Source: Nitrospira sp. | GTDB taxonomy: Bacteria; Nitrospirota; Nitrospiria; Nitrospirales; Nitrospiraceae | Direction: 5' to 3' | NCBI GenBank assembly: GCA_024998625.1 | Contig: JACOEL010000012.1 | Location: forward strand, 1-64,000 | DNA length: 64,000 nucleotides | Shown here: positions 52,218 through 56,949 of the stretch, piece by piece | How the letters are laid out: each line of letters starts with the position of its first letter | Position numbering within the stretch: the stretch's first letter is position 1 | Program-made: the position numbers and the translations under genes | Notes under the pieces: model-generated | What the model was told of the DNA's origin: nothing | The model's database searches: none | The model's input: only the letters and a program-made list of their open reading frames with translations

Positions 52218-53125
52218 GTTCGCCTGCGCTCCAGGAGACTCGACCCGATGGCGCGCAGGTACGTCAACGACAGCGCCAGGATTATCAGGAACACGGCCAC
52301 GGAGACGGCAGAGCCATATCCGATCCGGCCTTCCGTGAACAGGGTTTGGTAGCCATAGAACTGGAGGACCTGCGTGGCGTCGCCCGGGCCGCCTTGGGTC
52401 ATCACGAACACGAGATCGAAGACACGAAATGCATCCATGGTACGAAACAGTAGTGCGAGCAACAGCGCGGGCTTCAGCAGCGGAAGGGTGATGTGCCAAA
52501 ACCGTTGCCGGGCGGTAGCGCCATCGACCCGGGCGGCATCGTAGAGATCGTCTGGAATGACCTGGAGGCCGGCCAGGACCAGCAACGCGGCGAAGGAGGA
52601 TGTCTTCCAGACGTCCGCCAGTACGACGATGCCGAACGCCACGCTCGGATAGGCCAGCCAGGGGATGTAGTCGGTGACCTGTTCGCCGAACAACAATAAG
52701 TTTGCGAACCCGTACTGATCGTTGAAGATATAGCGCCACAGTTGCGACGCGACGACCGTCGGAATGGCCCAGGGAATCAGAATCGCCGCCCGCACGAGAC
52801 CGCGCCCGCGAAACCGCTCATGAATCACCAGCGCAATGATCAGTCCGCAGGCCAACTCCAGCAGCGTCGAAAGGACGACGAAGGCGAGGGTGACGGCCAG
52901 TGCCTGCTGCGCCACGGGATCACGGAGCAGCGCCACATAATTGTCCAGACCGACGAACGGACTGCCCAGTTGCGGCAATCCGATGTAGATATTGTGCAGG
53001 CTGAGCCAGAGCGAATCCAGAACCGGATACAGCGCAAAGACCATGGTCACCAGCAGCGCCGGGGCTACCATGGTCCAGGCCGCCAGATTCTCGCGATGTC
53101 GTAGAATCGAGGAGGCGCGGTTCAC
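52214..53125 (-). CDS. Sugar ABC importer permease 1 (MalF/UgpA-like)
   Basis: A 303-residue membrane protein, GTG start, overlapping the binding-protein stop (GTGA). Six membrane segments: AWTMVAPALLVTMVFALYPV opening, then QALAVTLAFVVLSTLLELACG and others. The EAA loop is VIPDDLYDAARVDGATARQRFWHITLPLLKP. The short N-terminus without extra MalF-type segments fits the UgpA/LacF-like subgroup. Solute probably an oligosaccharide or trehalose-like disaccharide; not readable from sequence. Confidence 0.94.
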   Translation of the reverse strand: MNRASSILRHRENLAAWTMVAPALLVTMVFALYPVLDSLWLSLHNIYIGLPQLGSPFVGLDNYVALLRDPVAQQALAVTLAFVVLSTLLELACGLIIALVIHERFRGRGLVRAAILIPWAIPTVVASQLWRYIFNDQYGFANLLLFGEQVTDYIPWLAYPSVAFGIVVLADVWKTSSFAALLVLAGLQVIPDDLYDAARVDGATARQRFWHITLPLLKPALLLALLFRTMDAFRVFDLVFVMTQGGPGDATQVLQFYGYQTLFTEGRIGYGSAVSVAVFLIILALSLTYLRAIGSSLLERRRT

Positions 53126-54492
53126 GGGACTTGTTCCCCCAGGGACAACAACCGATTGATCTGGGCATCGGCCGCAGTTGCTTCCTGCGCAAGATCGAGG
53201 TCGTCGATGGCGAGGGCGCGGCTGAAATACCGTTGCAGTAGATGCGAGATGGCGGGATACAGGGGGGAACGCGGGCGAGCGGTTGCGGACCGGAGGACGG
53301 CGAAGTGGTTACGGAGTTGCGGCGCTGCTGCCAGCAGGTCCGGATCGGAAAACAGCGCCTGACGGGAGGGCGCGATGCCGGCCTCCTGGGTGAATTTCTT
53401 TTGCATGGCCTGGCTGGAGAGAAACTCGATGAGCGCCCAGGCCTCGTCAGGGTGCTCCGAGTAGGCGCTGATACCGTAGAGCCAGCCGCCGAGTGCTGCG
53501 GCCGTGCGCCCCGGAGTGAACCCGGGAAGGGGCATCACGGCGACCTGTCCGGCGACGGTCGAGCGAGTCCGGTTGTTGGCCAGTTCCCAGGCATAGGGCC
53601 AGTTCCGGTGAAAGACTGCATGCCCTTGAAGAAAGACGGAGAGGGATTCCGGTTCTTGATAGGTCAACGCCGCGCGTGATGCAAGCCGGCCGATTACGCG
53701 CTCGCGAACGAACTGCACGGCGGCCATCGCTTCGGGTTGAGCCAGAGTGGAATGTGTTCCATCCGCGGTCAGCAGGCTTCCGCTGTGGCCGTCGATGAAC
53801 TCCAGCATGGTACAGACGAGGCCTTCGTACTGTTTGAATTGCGCCGTGTAGCCGCGCAGCGTCGGATTATTCCGCCGTTCCCCGGCGACAATCGTCTCGG
53901 CCTGCCGGGCCAGTTCGTCCCAGGTTGCCGGTGGTGAGAAGCCGTATTTGGTCAGCAAATCCGAGCGATAGTAGAGCAGGCCTGCATCGATGCGGCTCGG
54001 GACGCCGTAAAGATGGTCTGAATATCGTGTGACCTCAATGGTGGCGGGAAGAAACTCCTCACGCATGGCCGGAGTAAATCGCTCATCGAGCCGACGGGCC
54101 CAACCGGCTTCGGCAAACTCCGGCACCCAGATCACATCCATGAAAAAGACATCGACCGTGGCATCGCGATTCTTTAGCTTTTGCGTCAGGAGATCGTGAT
54201 AGGCGGTCGAGCTGTGCGGGGCCAGTTCGCGCACGACCGAAATATCAGGATGGGTTTTGGTGAACTCGGAGAGGGCCTCCTCCCATACGCGCGGGTGATC
54301 CGGTTTCCAGGAGATGAAACGTAGCGTGACGGAGGGAGCGTTCCCGCCCCCCATCTTCGACGGTGACTCAGCGTGGCTGGGGTTGCCTATGAACCCTGCA
54401 AGAAGGAAAACAAGCAGTCCGATCCAGCGAGGGACTCTCGAGGGAGGAACTGATGTGCGCGGGATGCGCTGAGAGGGGGGAATCCATCGCAT
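53122..54492 (-). CDS. Extracellular solute-binding protein of the sugar ABC importer
   Basis: A 456-residue periplasmic binding protein (family 1). A long basic N-terminus precedes a hydrophobic core (IGLLVFLLAGFIGNPSHA) and a probable Sec cleavage after SHA; no lipobox. Motifs: VTLRFISWKPDHPRVWEEAL, FFMDVIWVPEFAEAGWARRL, YGVPSRIDAGLLYYRSDLL and PLPGFTPGRTAAALGGWLYG. The pattern with DVIWVPEFA resembles ThuE-like trehalose/maltose-binding proteins. ATG 54492 or GTG 54495 starts it, with no ribosome site and a promoter only ten bases away, so the transcript may be leaderless. Confidence 0.92.
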   Translation of the reverse strand: MRWIPPSQRIPRTSVPPSRVPRWIGLLVFLLAGFIGNPSHAESPSKMGGGNAPSVTLRFISWKPDHPRVWEEALSEFTKTHPDISVVRELAPHSSTAYHDLLTQKLKNRDATVDVFFMDVIWVPEFAEAGWARRLDERFTPAMREEFLPATIEVTRYSDHLYGVPSRIDAGLLYYRSDLLTKYGFSPPATWDELARQAETIVAGERRNNPTLRGYTAQFKQYEGLVCTMLEFIDGHSGSLLTADGTHSTLAQPEAMAAVQFVRERVIGRLASRAALTYQEPESLSVFLQGHAVFHRNWPYAWELANNRTRSTVAGQVAVMPLPGFTPGRTAAALGGWLYGISAYSEHPDEAWALIEFLSSQAMQKKFTQEAGIAPSRQALFSDPDLLAAAPQLRNHFAVLRSATARPRSPLYPAISHLLQRYFSRALAIDDLDLAQEATAADAQINRLLSLGEQVP

Positions 54493-54502
54493 CACTCTAT
54501 AT

Positions 54503-54554: not shown

Positions 54555-55493
54555 TTAGCGTGGCGTCGCGGTCTTGGCCTTTGCCATCATCTTGCAGTAG
54601 GAGCAGGTGTCGGCGGTGGTGGGTTGTCCGCAGGATTGGCAGGGGTGCAGGGTCCGCTGATCCTTCTCGGCCATGGATTCCTTGGGCACGTCCGGCTTGT
54701 TCTGCTTCTCAAGAAACCCCCAATAGAAACGTTGTTTCGTGCCGGGCGATTCCGTTTCCAGACGGTTGAGGACCTCTTTATAGAGGATCATCTTCGATCC
54801 CTTGGCCATGGGGCATTCTTCTACGATGTAGTCGATGCGATTGACGACCGCGTAAGCGGCGATCTCCCGTTCCGACAATCGACAGAGCGGCTTCACTTTC
54901 TTGGCGAAGCCTTCGACGGAGGCAGGAAGGGTCGGTCCTTGTTTCTCCAGATATTCATCCTGCCAGTGCAGCACATTACCTAAGAGGCGCGCGGCTTCGT
55001 CGTCCAGATTGTGGCCCGTGGCCATCACGTCATAGTCCTGTTCCACCGCCGCGCGATTGAACTGATACCGCTTGATGGTTCCACACGTCGAACAGGTCGG
55101 GCGATGAAGGACGGTGGCCAATTCACGAATGCCGCCGCCGGCTTCCTGCTCGACGACATGCACGATCAGTTTCGCGCCATGGGCGGCGGCCACGGTGTCT
55201 GCGTAGTGCCGCACTTTCCGGTGCGATTCATCGGAGTAGGCACCGATGCCGAGATTCACATACAGCGCGTCGGCGCGGTAGCCGAGGGTCAGCAGGATAT
55301 GCCACAGGGCGAGGCTGTCTTTACCCCCCGAGACGGCCACCAGGATGCGGTCCTCGGGCGCAAACATCTTGAACGACTTGATCGCGCGCGCGACCTGCTC
55401 GTGCATAAAGGTCGTAAAGCAGCCTTTGCAGAAGGCGGCATTGTGCCGTGGGAGGCTGATGACGGCCTTGGTCTTGCACTTGCCGCAATTCAT
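54555..55493 (-). CDS. ttuA: tRNA 2-thiolation enzyme, TtuA/NcsA type
   Basis: A 312-residue adenylating sulfurtransferase of the TtcA/TtuA family. All TtuA features are present: N-terminal zinc knuckle C3, C6, C22, C25; PP-loop SGGKDS (55-60); three Fe-S cluster ligands C134, C137 (TCSTCG) and C227 (EECPM); and C-terminal zinc knuckle C285, C288, C297, C300. Thermus TtuA makes 2-thiouridine at tRNA position 54 with sulfur from the ubiquitin-like TtuB; archaeal NcsA acts at U34. The neighbouring gene encodes a TtuB-like protein, which supports this branch over glutathione-free TtcA. Which uridine is modified here is unknown. Confidence 0.92.
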   Translation of the reverse strand: MNCGKCKTKAVISLPRHNAAFCKGCFTTFMHEQVARAIKSFKMFAPEDRILVAVSGGKDSLALWHILLTLGYRADALYVNLGIGAYSDESHRKVRHYADTVAAAHGAKLIVHVVEQEAGGGIRELATVLHRPTCSTCGTIKRYQFNRAAVEQDYDVMATGHNLDDEAARLLGNVLHWQDEYLEKQGPTLPASVEGFAKKVKPLCRLSEREIAAYAVVNRIDYIVEECPMAKGSKMILYKEVLNRLETESPGTKQRFYWGFLEKQNKPDVPKESMAEKDQRTLHPCQSCGQPTTADTCSYCKMMAKAKTATPR

Positions 55494-55537
55494 AACTGTT
55501 CCGTCAATCGTGAATGGTGAGAGGAAGATTGCACCGT

Positions 55538-55732
55538 TCAGCCGCCGGAGATCACCGGTCGGATTTCAACCTGGTCGGCGTCGGCGAGCATTTCATCTTC
55601 CGTGACGAGTTCATCTCCCCGGATGACGAGATGCGCCTCCATCACCAGATTAAGTTCGCGTAGCAACTCCTTGGTGCGTTTGGGCCCTTTGATTTCAACT
55701 TGGCGTTGCGGATGACTGAGTTGAACGATCAT
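55538..55732 (-). CDS. ttuB: Ubiquitin-like sulfur carrier (TtuB/MoaD/ThiS family)
   Basis: A 64-residue beta-grasp protein. The ATG at 55732 is used; a longer in-phase frame to 56155 overlaps the uridylyltransferase gene and is a shadow. The sequence opens MIVQLSHPQRQVEIKGPK, has the internal DELVTEDEMLADADQVEI typical of the fold, and ends VISGG, the Gly-Gly that is adenylated and thiocarboxylated by an E1-like enzyme. It lies 44 bases before the ttuA-like gene on the same strand, so it is the probable sulfur donor. No E1-like activator (MoeB/TtuC) is in the window. Confidence 0.88.
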   Translation of the reverse strand: MIVQLSHPQRQVEIKGPKRTKELLRELNLVMEAHLVIRGDELVTEDEMLADADQVEIRPVISGG

Positions 55733-55844: not shown

Positions 55845-56846
55845 TCAAATCTCCGCGTCTCGCAGGGCCTTCGCCGCTTCTTCCGGGGCGACTGGGTTGA
55901 TATAAAACCCGGTGCCCCATTCAAATCCGGCCACCTGGGTGAGTTTCGGGATGATCTCGATGTGCCAATGATAGTAGTCTCCGGTTTTTTCGTGCAGCGG
56001 CGAGCTGTGCAGGATGAAGTTGTAGGCCGGTCGAGCCAGCACGGCATCCATCCGGCGTAGCGCTTCGCCCAGCATAGGCGCCAGAAATTCGAACTGAGCA
56101 CGTTGGCATTCTTCGAAATATCCTGCGTGACGCTTAGGAAGGATCCACATTTCAAACGGAAAGCGGGGCGCGTAGGGGGTCAGGCAGACAAACTCCGGGT
56201 TCTCCAAGACCACGCGGGTGCCTTCCGACGATTCCTGCCGCAGGATGTCGCAATAGATGCAGCGTTCCTTCTGCTGGAAATGCTGCCGACATCCGTCGAT
56301 TTCTTCGATGACGCTGGTGGGCACGACCGGCAAGGCGATGAGCTGAGAGTGGCTATGCTCCAACGTGGCGCCCGCCGTGGCGCCCTGATTCTTGAAGATC
56401 AGAATATATCGCAACCTCAGATCCTTCTTGAGGTCGAGAATCCGGTCGCGATAGGCCCAGAGCACATCCTCCACCCGCTTGGCCGGCAGGTCGGCGAGGT
56501 GTTCCTTGTGATTGGGGGTTTCGATGATGACTTCGTGGGCGCCGATGCCGTTCATGCGGTCGTAGAGGCCGAGGCCTTCGCGTCCCATGTCGCCTTCGAC
56601 ATGCAGCGCGGGAAACTTATTGGGGATGACCCGCACGGTCCAATTCGGGCTGTCCGGTTCCGAGGCATGGGGCCGATAGGCGAGGATTTCTTTCGGCGTC
56701 AGACGTTCCTGTCCCGGGCAAAACGGACACATGGATGCAGAGGGAAGCGGCGCCGACGGCATAGAGACGTCTTGGGGGCGCCCGCCTCGTTCGGTTGAAA
56801 TGATGACCCAGCGGCCGACGATCGGGTCTCTTCTCAGTTCAGGCAT
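55845..56846 (-). CDS. galT: Galactose-1-phosphate uridylyltransferase family enzyme
   Basis: A 333-residue HIT-superfamily nucleotidyltransferase. The start at 56846 gives MPELRRDPIVGRWVIISTER, the canonical opening. Zinc ligands C40 and C43 (CPFCPG) and the active-site HSHSQ (164-168) are present; the family's usual motif is HPHxQ, so the middle Pro is Ser. A second Cys pair (CIYC) follows. It transfers UMP, or in some bacterial members ADP, between hexose-1-phosphates. The GH57 gene lies directly upstream and the importer downstream, suggesting alpha-glucan or galactose handling. Confidence 0.92.
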   Translation of the reverse strand: MPELRRDPIVGRWVIISTERGGRPQDVSMPSAPLPSASMCPFCPGQERLTPKEILAYRPHASEPDSPNWTVRVIPNKFPALHVEGDMGREGLGLYDRMNGIGAHEVIIETPNHKEHLADLPAKRVEDVLWAYRDRILDLKKDLRLRYILIFKNQGATAGATLEHSHSQLIALPVVPTSVIEEIDGCRQHFQQKERCIYCDILRQESSEGTRVVLENPEFVCLTPYAPRFPFEMWILPKRHAGYFEECQRAQFEFLAPMLGEALRRMDAVLARPAYNFILHSSPLHEKTGDYYHWHIEIIPKLTQVAGFEWGTGFYINPVAPEEAAKALRDAEI

Positions 56847-56949
56847 CTCGACTCCTCTAGTTGTCAATGGTCACTGTGCACTGCTCGATGTCCAATGATG
56901 GGGCGGATGGTGAGGACCTCATTGAACAGGGAGCATTGAGCGTTGTCGT

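Follow-up and report, generated by a model that had tools for sequence, protein, structure and literature searches.

The closest described counterpart of the gene pair studied here is TtuA/TtuB of Thermus thermophilus (5gha, 5ztb), an enzyme and sulfur carrier that make m5s2U54 in tRNA. A mechanistic model is available for the Thermus pair (PMC3980101, PMC7138817); in the same organism, m5U54 is made by TrmFO and m1A58 favours thiolation (PMC6313347; PMC7912444). The product has been reviewed as thermophile-specific and absent from mesophiles (PMC6313347). TtuA of Pyrococcus horikoshii (PH0300; 3vrh, 5mko) was reported to work without TtuB, using free sulfide (PMC7138817). Archaeal NcsA with SAMP2 and eukaryotic Ncs6 with Urm1 belong to the same superfamily and follow the same carrier principle, but target the wobble U34. 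Certain other sulfur carriers (QbsE and HcyS) have residues past Gly-Gly that are removed by a JAMM protease (QbsD and HcyD, respectively). In Deinococcus, DRJAMM cleaves MoaD–MoaE to expose the glycine (PMC8832034).

We analysed a window of 64,000 nucleotides (the whole stretch of DNA under study) from a Nitrospira genome (G000; 37 contigs, 4.42 Mb). The closely related loci fall within Nitrospira lineage I, the N. defluvii protein showing 94% identity; from this placement and general knowledge of the genus we take the host to be mesophilic. The initial annotation had proposed a 64-residue beta-grasp protein with a Gly-Gly end ahead of a TtuA-like enzyme carrying all diagnostic cysteines, and each of these elements was recovered (Table 1): ttuB lies upstream of ttuA on the minus strand with a gap of 44 nt, and its product ends in ISGG, with TGA directly after.

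Table 1. Positions of the ttuB–ttuA pair, its diagnostic residues and its neighbours in the window.
Feature	Position	Strand	Description
ttuB	55538..55732	minus	64 codons, ATG at 55732; 64-aa beta-grasp sulfur carrier without C-terminal tail
ttuA	54555..55493	minus	312 aa, tRNA 2-thiouridylase family; PP-loop ATPase, three-Cys Fe–S site, two zinc modules
TtuA C134-x2-C137 Fe–S ligands and K141	55068..55094	minus	Align with C130/C133/K137 of Thermus; no variation among 23 TtuA sequences
TtuA C227 Fe–S ligand, K231, K234	54792..54815	minus	Aligned to Thermus C222, K226, K229
galT-like uridylyltransferase	55845..56867	minus	Pfam GalP_UDP_transf, E 2e-15; upstream neighbour, same direction as ttuB
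Sugar ABC importer substrate-binding protein	53122..54495	minus	Pfam SBP_bac_1, E 4.5e-36; downstream neighbour of ttuA

Thermus TtuB was the best PDB match of the small protein (phmmer, E 1.2e-7; about 35% identity) and the top fold match of its predicted model (pLDDT 91; 5ztb_E, TM 0.91), with ThiS and MoaD structures matching the model more weakly. The source genome has its own moaD, which sits in the moa cluster, and its own thiS, which adjoins thiG; with these two carriers accounted for by separate operons and TtuB the better fit by sequence and fold, MoaD and ThiS are ruled out as identities of the small protein, and its original reading as TtuB holds. Orthologues are 36–92% identical to the window TtuB and keep the Gly-Gly at all 101 distinct loci. 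The dN/dS of ttuB against close relatives is roughly 0.03–0.15, which together with the phmmer E value argues that the pair is no chance finding. The gene is under strong purifying selection, and the pair is selected, not decaying.

The larger protein was matched by phmmer to Thermus TtuA with an E value (3.6e-76; 46% identity) that excludes chance, to Pyrococcus TtuA (2.2e-70; 44%) and to the U34 enzyme NcsA (4e-20; 28%); identity to TtcA was 25%. Its predicted model (pLDDT 86) had TtuA of 5ztb and 5gha as top fold matches (TM 0.89), and fold ranked the relatives in the same order as sequence; in the TtuA tree, deep branches are long and placement is weak. Alignment to Thermus located all three Fe–S ligands and both zinc modules (C3/C6/C22/C25 at the N terminus and C285/C288/C297/C300 at the C terminus). 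Residue 25, a Cys in the window protein, is replaced by His in Thermus and in some of the relatives. The PP-loop (SGGKDS) fits SGGxDS, C227 is invariant among the 23 TtuA sequences, and K231 and K234 are kept in most of them. Against the NCBIfam U54 model NF049949, which was built on Pyrococcus-type proteins with a cut-off set for Pyrococcus-type equivalogs, the window TtuA scored 275 bits, below the required 450; none of the 245 phylum genomes reached this cut-off, despite having Thermus-type proteins as nearest relatives. The shortfall limits the exact label of TtuA, not its family membership. Enzyme and carrier families, folds, Fe–S and zinc ligands, the ISGG end and the active-site lysines are all shared with Thermus, at the modest identities given above and in a host that, unlike Thermus, is mesophilic. 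The [4Fe–4S] site and the two zinc modules are shared with P. horikoshii as well.

We looked for partner genes in the source genome through family searches, including the E1-like MoeB/TtuC and the MnmA/TtcA enzymes that the initial annotation had suggested looking for. Two MoeB/UbaA-type E1 adenylyltransferases (275 and 267 aa) are encoded on contig C32, and MnmA (U34) and TtcA (position C32 of tRNA) elsewhere in the genome, with strong scores. TrmFO and a TrmI-type m1A58 enzyme are also encoded, as is a JAMM-type protein, distantly like desampylase, in a cysteine/threonine synthase cluster on contig C32. TrmFO, TrmI, the two E1 enzymes and the JAMM-type protein complete a Thermus-like gene set, which differs from that of Thermus in having two E1 genes, not one. 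The cluster on contig C32 (L014:4706-10311) combines both E1 enzymes, CysO-like and ThiS-like carriers and cysteine synthase with threonine synthase and the JAMM-type protein (HSHPKDPARPSHTD).

TtuA, NcsA and TtcA form one superfamily and tRNA modification sets differ across bacteria, which leaves a small chance that the pair makes s2U at another tRNA position (U34, NcsA-like, or C32, TtcA-like) or thiolates a different RNA. However, with MnmA and TtcA present, thiolation of U34 and C32 is already served, and a target of the NcsA or TtcA type is disfavoured. The ranking of identities, with Thermus TtuA well above NcsA and TtcA, and the presence of both enzymes that ready position 54 for thiolation in Thermus (TrmFO and TrmI), also speak against another position. 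Given that MnmA, TtcA, MoaD and ThiS are separately encoded, TtuA/TtuB are not doing those jobs, and position 54 of the tRNA would be their natural target.

Sequence and predicted fold support the TtuB/TtuA assignment, as do the active-site residues, the genomic context and the conserved pairing of the genes. We consider it probable that the pair is a TtuB/TtuA tRNA thiolation module, with the chemistry taken from the Thermus model, U54 as the presumed target and the reaction presumed to run at moderate temperature. By analogy, an E1 enzyme would adenylate the TtuB C terminus, which would then be loaded with sulfur as a thiocarboxylate (TtuB-COSH) and coordinate the free iron of the TtuA [4Fe–4S] cluster. 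In the tRNA T-loop, U54 would be adenylated at C2 by the PP-loop of TtuA, and the sulfur would pass to U54, displacing the C2 oxygen. With methylation by TrmFO, the product would be m5s2U54, and m1A58 made by TrmI may favour the thiolation. We infer from this correspondence that the Nitrospira pair produces m5s2U54. Our literature search found no nucleoside data for Nitrospira tRNA and no paper connecting TtuA with Nitrospira.

The distribution of the pair was determined in 245 evenly sampled genomes of the phylum, 112 of which contain TtuA. In the 88 sampled genomes of the class, counted from result tables and dependent on the E-value thresholds used, TtuA was found in 80 and TtuB in 83 (both, 80; TtuB only, 3; TtuA only, 0; neither, 5). 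The ttuB–ttuA order is maintained out to other families and Bacillota. A subset of Nitrospira, including N. moscoviensis, has the two genes non-adjacent, unlike Thermus, which counts against the thiolation-module reading. Loci with ttuA but no adjacent ttuB are L076 and L240 (N. moscoviensis), L077, L084, L089, L090, L094, L098 and L121; ttuB lies elsewhere in the same genome, and in N. moscoviensis the distance is approximately 11 kb.

Around the pair, the gene order on the minus strand is GH57 glycosidase, galT, ttuB, ttuA and the sugar-binding protein gene, so the location between galT and a sugar importer was correctly described at the outset. It was also thought unexpected, and is explained as a lineage-specific neighbourhood: GH57–galT–ttuB–ttuA is kept at most Nitrospira loci, whereas deeper relatives have ttuB and ttuA together without galT, and the importer gene adjoins ttuA in only some close relatives. 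As this neighbourhood is missing from deeper relatives, a functional tie to galT or the importer is unsupported; galT is probably not part of the thiolation system, and the substrate-binding protein lies outside it.

We regard it as slightly less probable still than another tRNA position that TtuB chiefly serves another process, as a sulfur carrier or as a protein modifier acting through ubiquitin-like conjugation, with its use by TtuA secondary. Thermus attaches TtuB to lysines K137/K226/K229 of TtuA and to TtuC (PMC3980101), and the equivalent K141/K231/K234 are all present in the window TtuA. An E1 and a desampylase-like JAMM protease are encoded, and three genomes keep TtuB without detected TtuA. 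The same three lysines, however, lie in the active site, where K137 is catalytic in Thermus (PMC7138817), and conservation of these residues therefore does not prove conjugation. That TtuB co-occurs almost perfectly with TtuA, and that their genes are paired, indicates TtuA as its chief partner. We know of no E2 or E3 for TtuB conjugation, which also weighs against a modifier role. That the pair is a horizontally acquired thermophile leftover, inactive in a mesophile, would accord with m5s2U54 being regarded as thermophile-specific (PMC6313347) but is very improbable, as the pair is retained in 80 of the 88 class genomes, its active-site residues are invariant and dN/dS is well below 1, all of which favours an active, selected function.

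The window TtuB needs no trimming. Among relatives, SGG is present at 101 of 101 distinct ttuB loci; 49 of these stop right after it and 52 continue, mostly for 1–37 residues, which is a further difference from Thermus. The tails are hypervariable (tailed loci include L065, with a tail of 15 residues, L068, L070, L071, L073, L091, L074 and L082). They are not an assembly artefact, given that closed genomes are among those with tails (N. defluvii, L050, with the tail SV, and isolate UBC2, L119, with the tail A). On the TtuA tree of 79 loci, tail state changes at least 18 times, a count that may be inflated by tree error (shuffled labels: mean 26, minimum 20). Some tails end with an ATGA overlap onto the ttuA start, and several 15-residue tails are translated from TTCACG-type repeats, copies of which lie upstream of other genes as well, outside ttuB. 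Short direct repeats of this type were seen near genes at L065:5966-5988, L079:2033-2055 and L117:5966-5988. In one metagenome-assembled genome (G156, contig C83, L018), ttuB runs in frame into ttuA (SGG-MKCKVC...) as a natural fusion; the two genes are unfused at L019, from the same genus. We found no prior description of TtuB tails in the literature.

Other sulfur carriers were compared in 14 relatives and the source genome. MoaD and ThiS always have residues past the Gly-Gly, and the CysO-like carrier ends exactly at Gly-Gly within the genus and is tailed outside it. The MoaD of the source genome (L015:4356-4664) ends in FAGG-NHRSTR, and at three loci of relatives (L210, L222 and L233) MoaD continues in frame into MoaE-like sequence, as in Deinococcus. 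Such residues past Gly-Gly are shared by tailed relatives with the JAMM-activated carriers (MoaD–MoaE, QbsE and HcyS), in contrast to the tail-less window TtuB. As the TtuB C terminus has to be free for activation and cluster binding, a tail must be removed first; by analogy with these carriers, tailed TtuB is probably trimmed by a JAMM protease before it is activated, with the cut expected after the Gly-Gly. This removal would resemble the trimming of eukaryotic ubiquitin-like precursors. A Prok-JAB match is present in 228 of the 245 phylum genomes, a near-universal occurrence that gives a comparison of tails with JAMM presence no contrast.

The locus represents a known type of pair in an unexpected host, and, if trimming is borne out, the tailed TtuB found in relatives would count as a new variant. 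We are evenly divided on the broader proposal that this mesophilic clade makes m5s2U54 to serve a need unrelated to heat, and that TtuB and other carriers are often proproteins with a variable tail cut by JAMM. If the tails are trimmed, ubiquitin-style precursor processing would extend to the TtuB carrier. Given the description of m5s2U54 as thermophile-specific, the conservation of the pair in mesophiles is the point of note. The complete, selected and near-universal TtuA/TtuB of nitrite-oxidising and comammox Nitrospira makes a possible moderate-temperature role of m5s2U54, for instance in stabilising tRNA or in sensing sulfur, directly testable.
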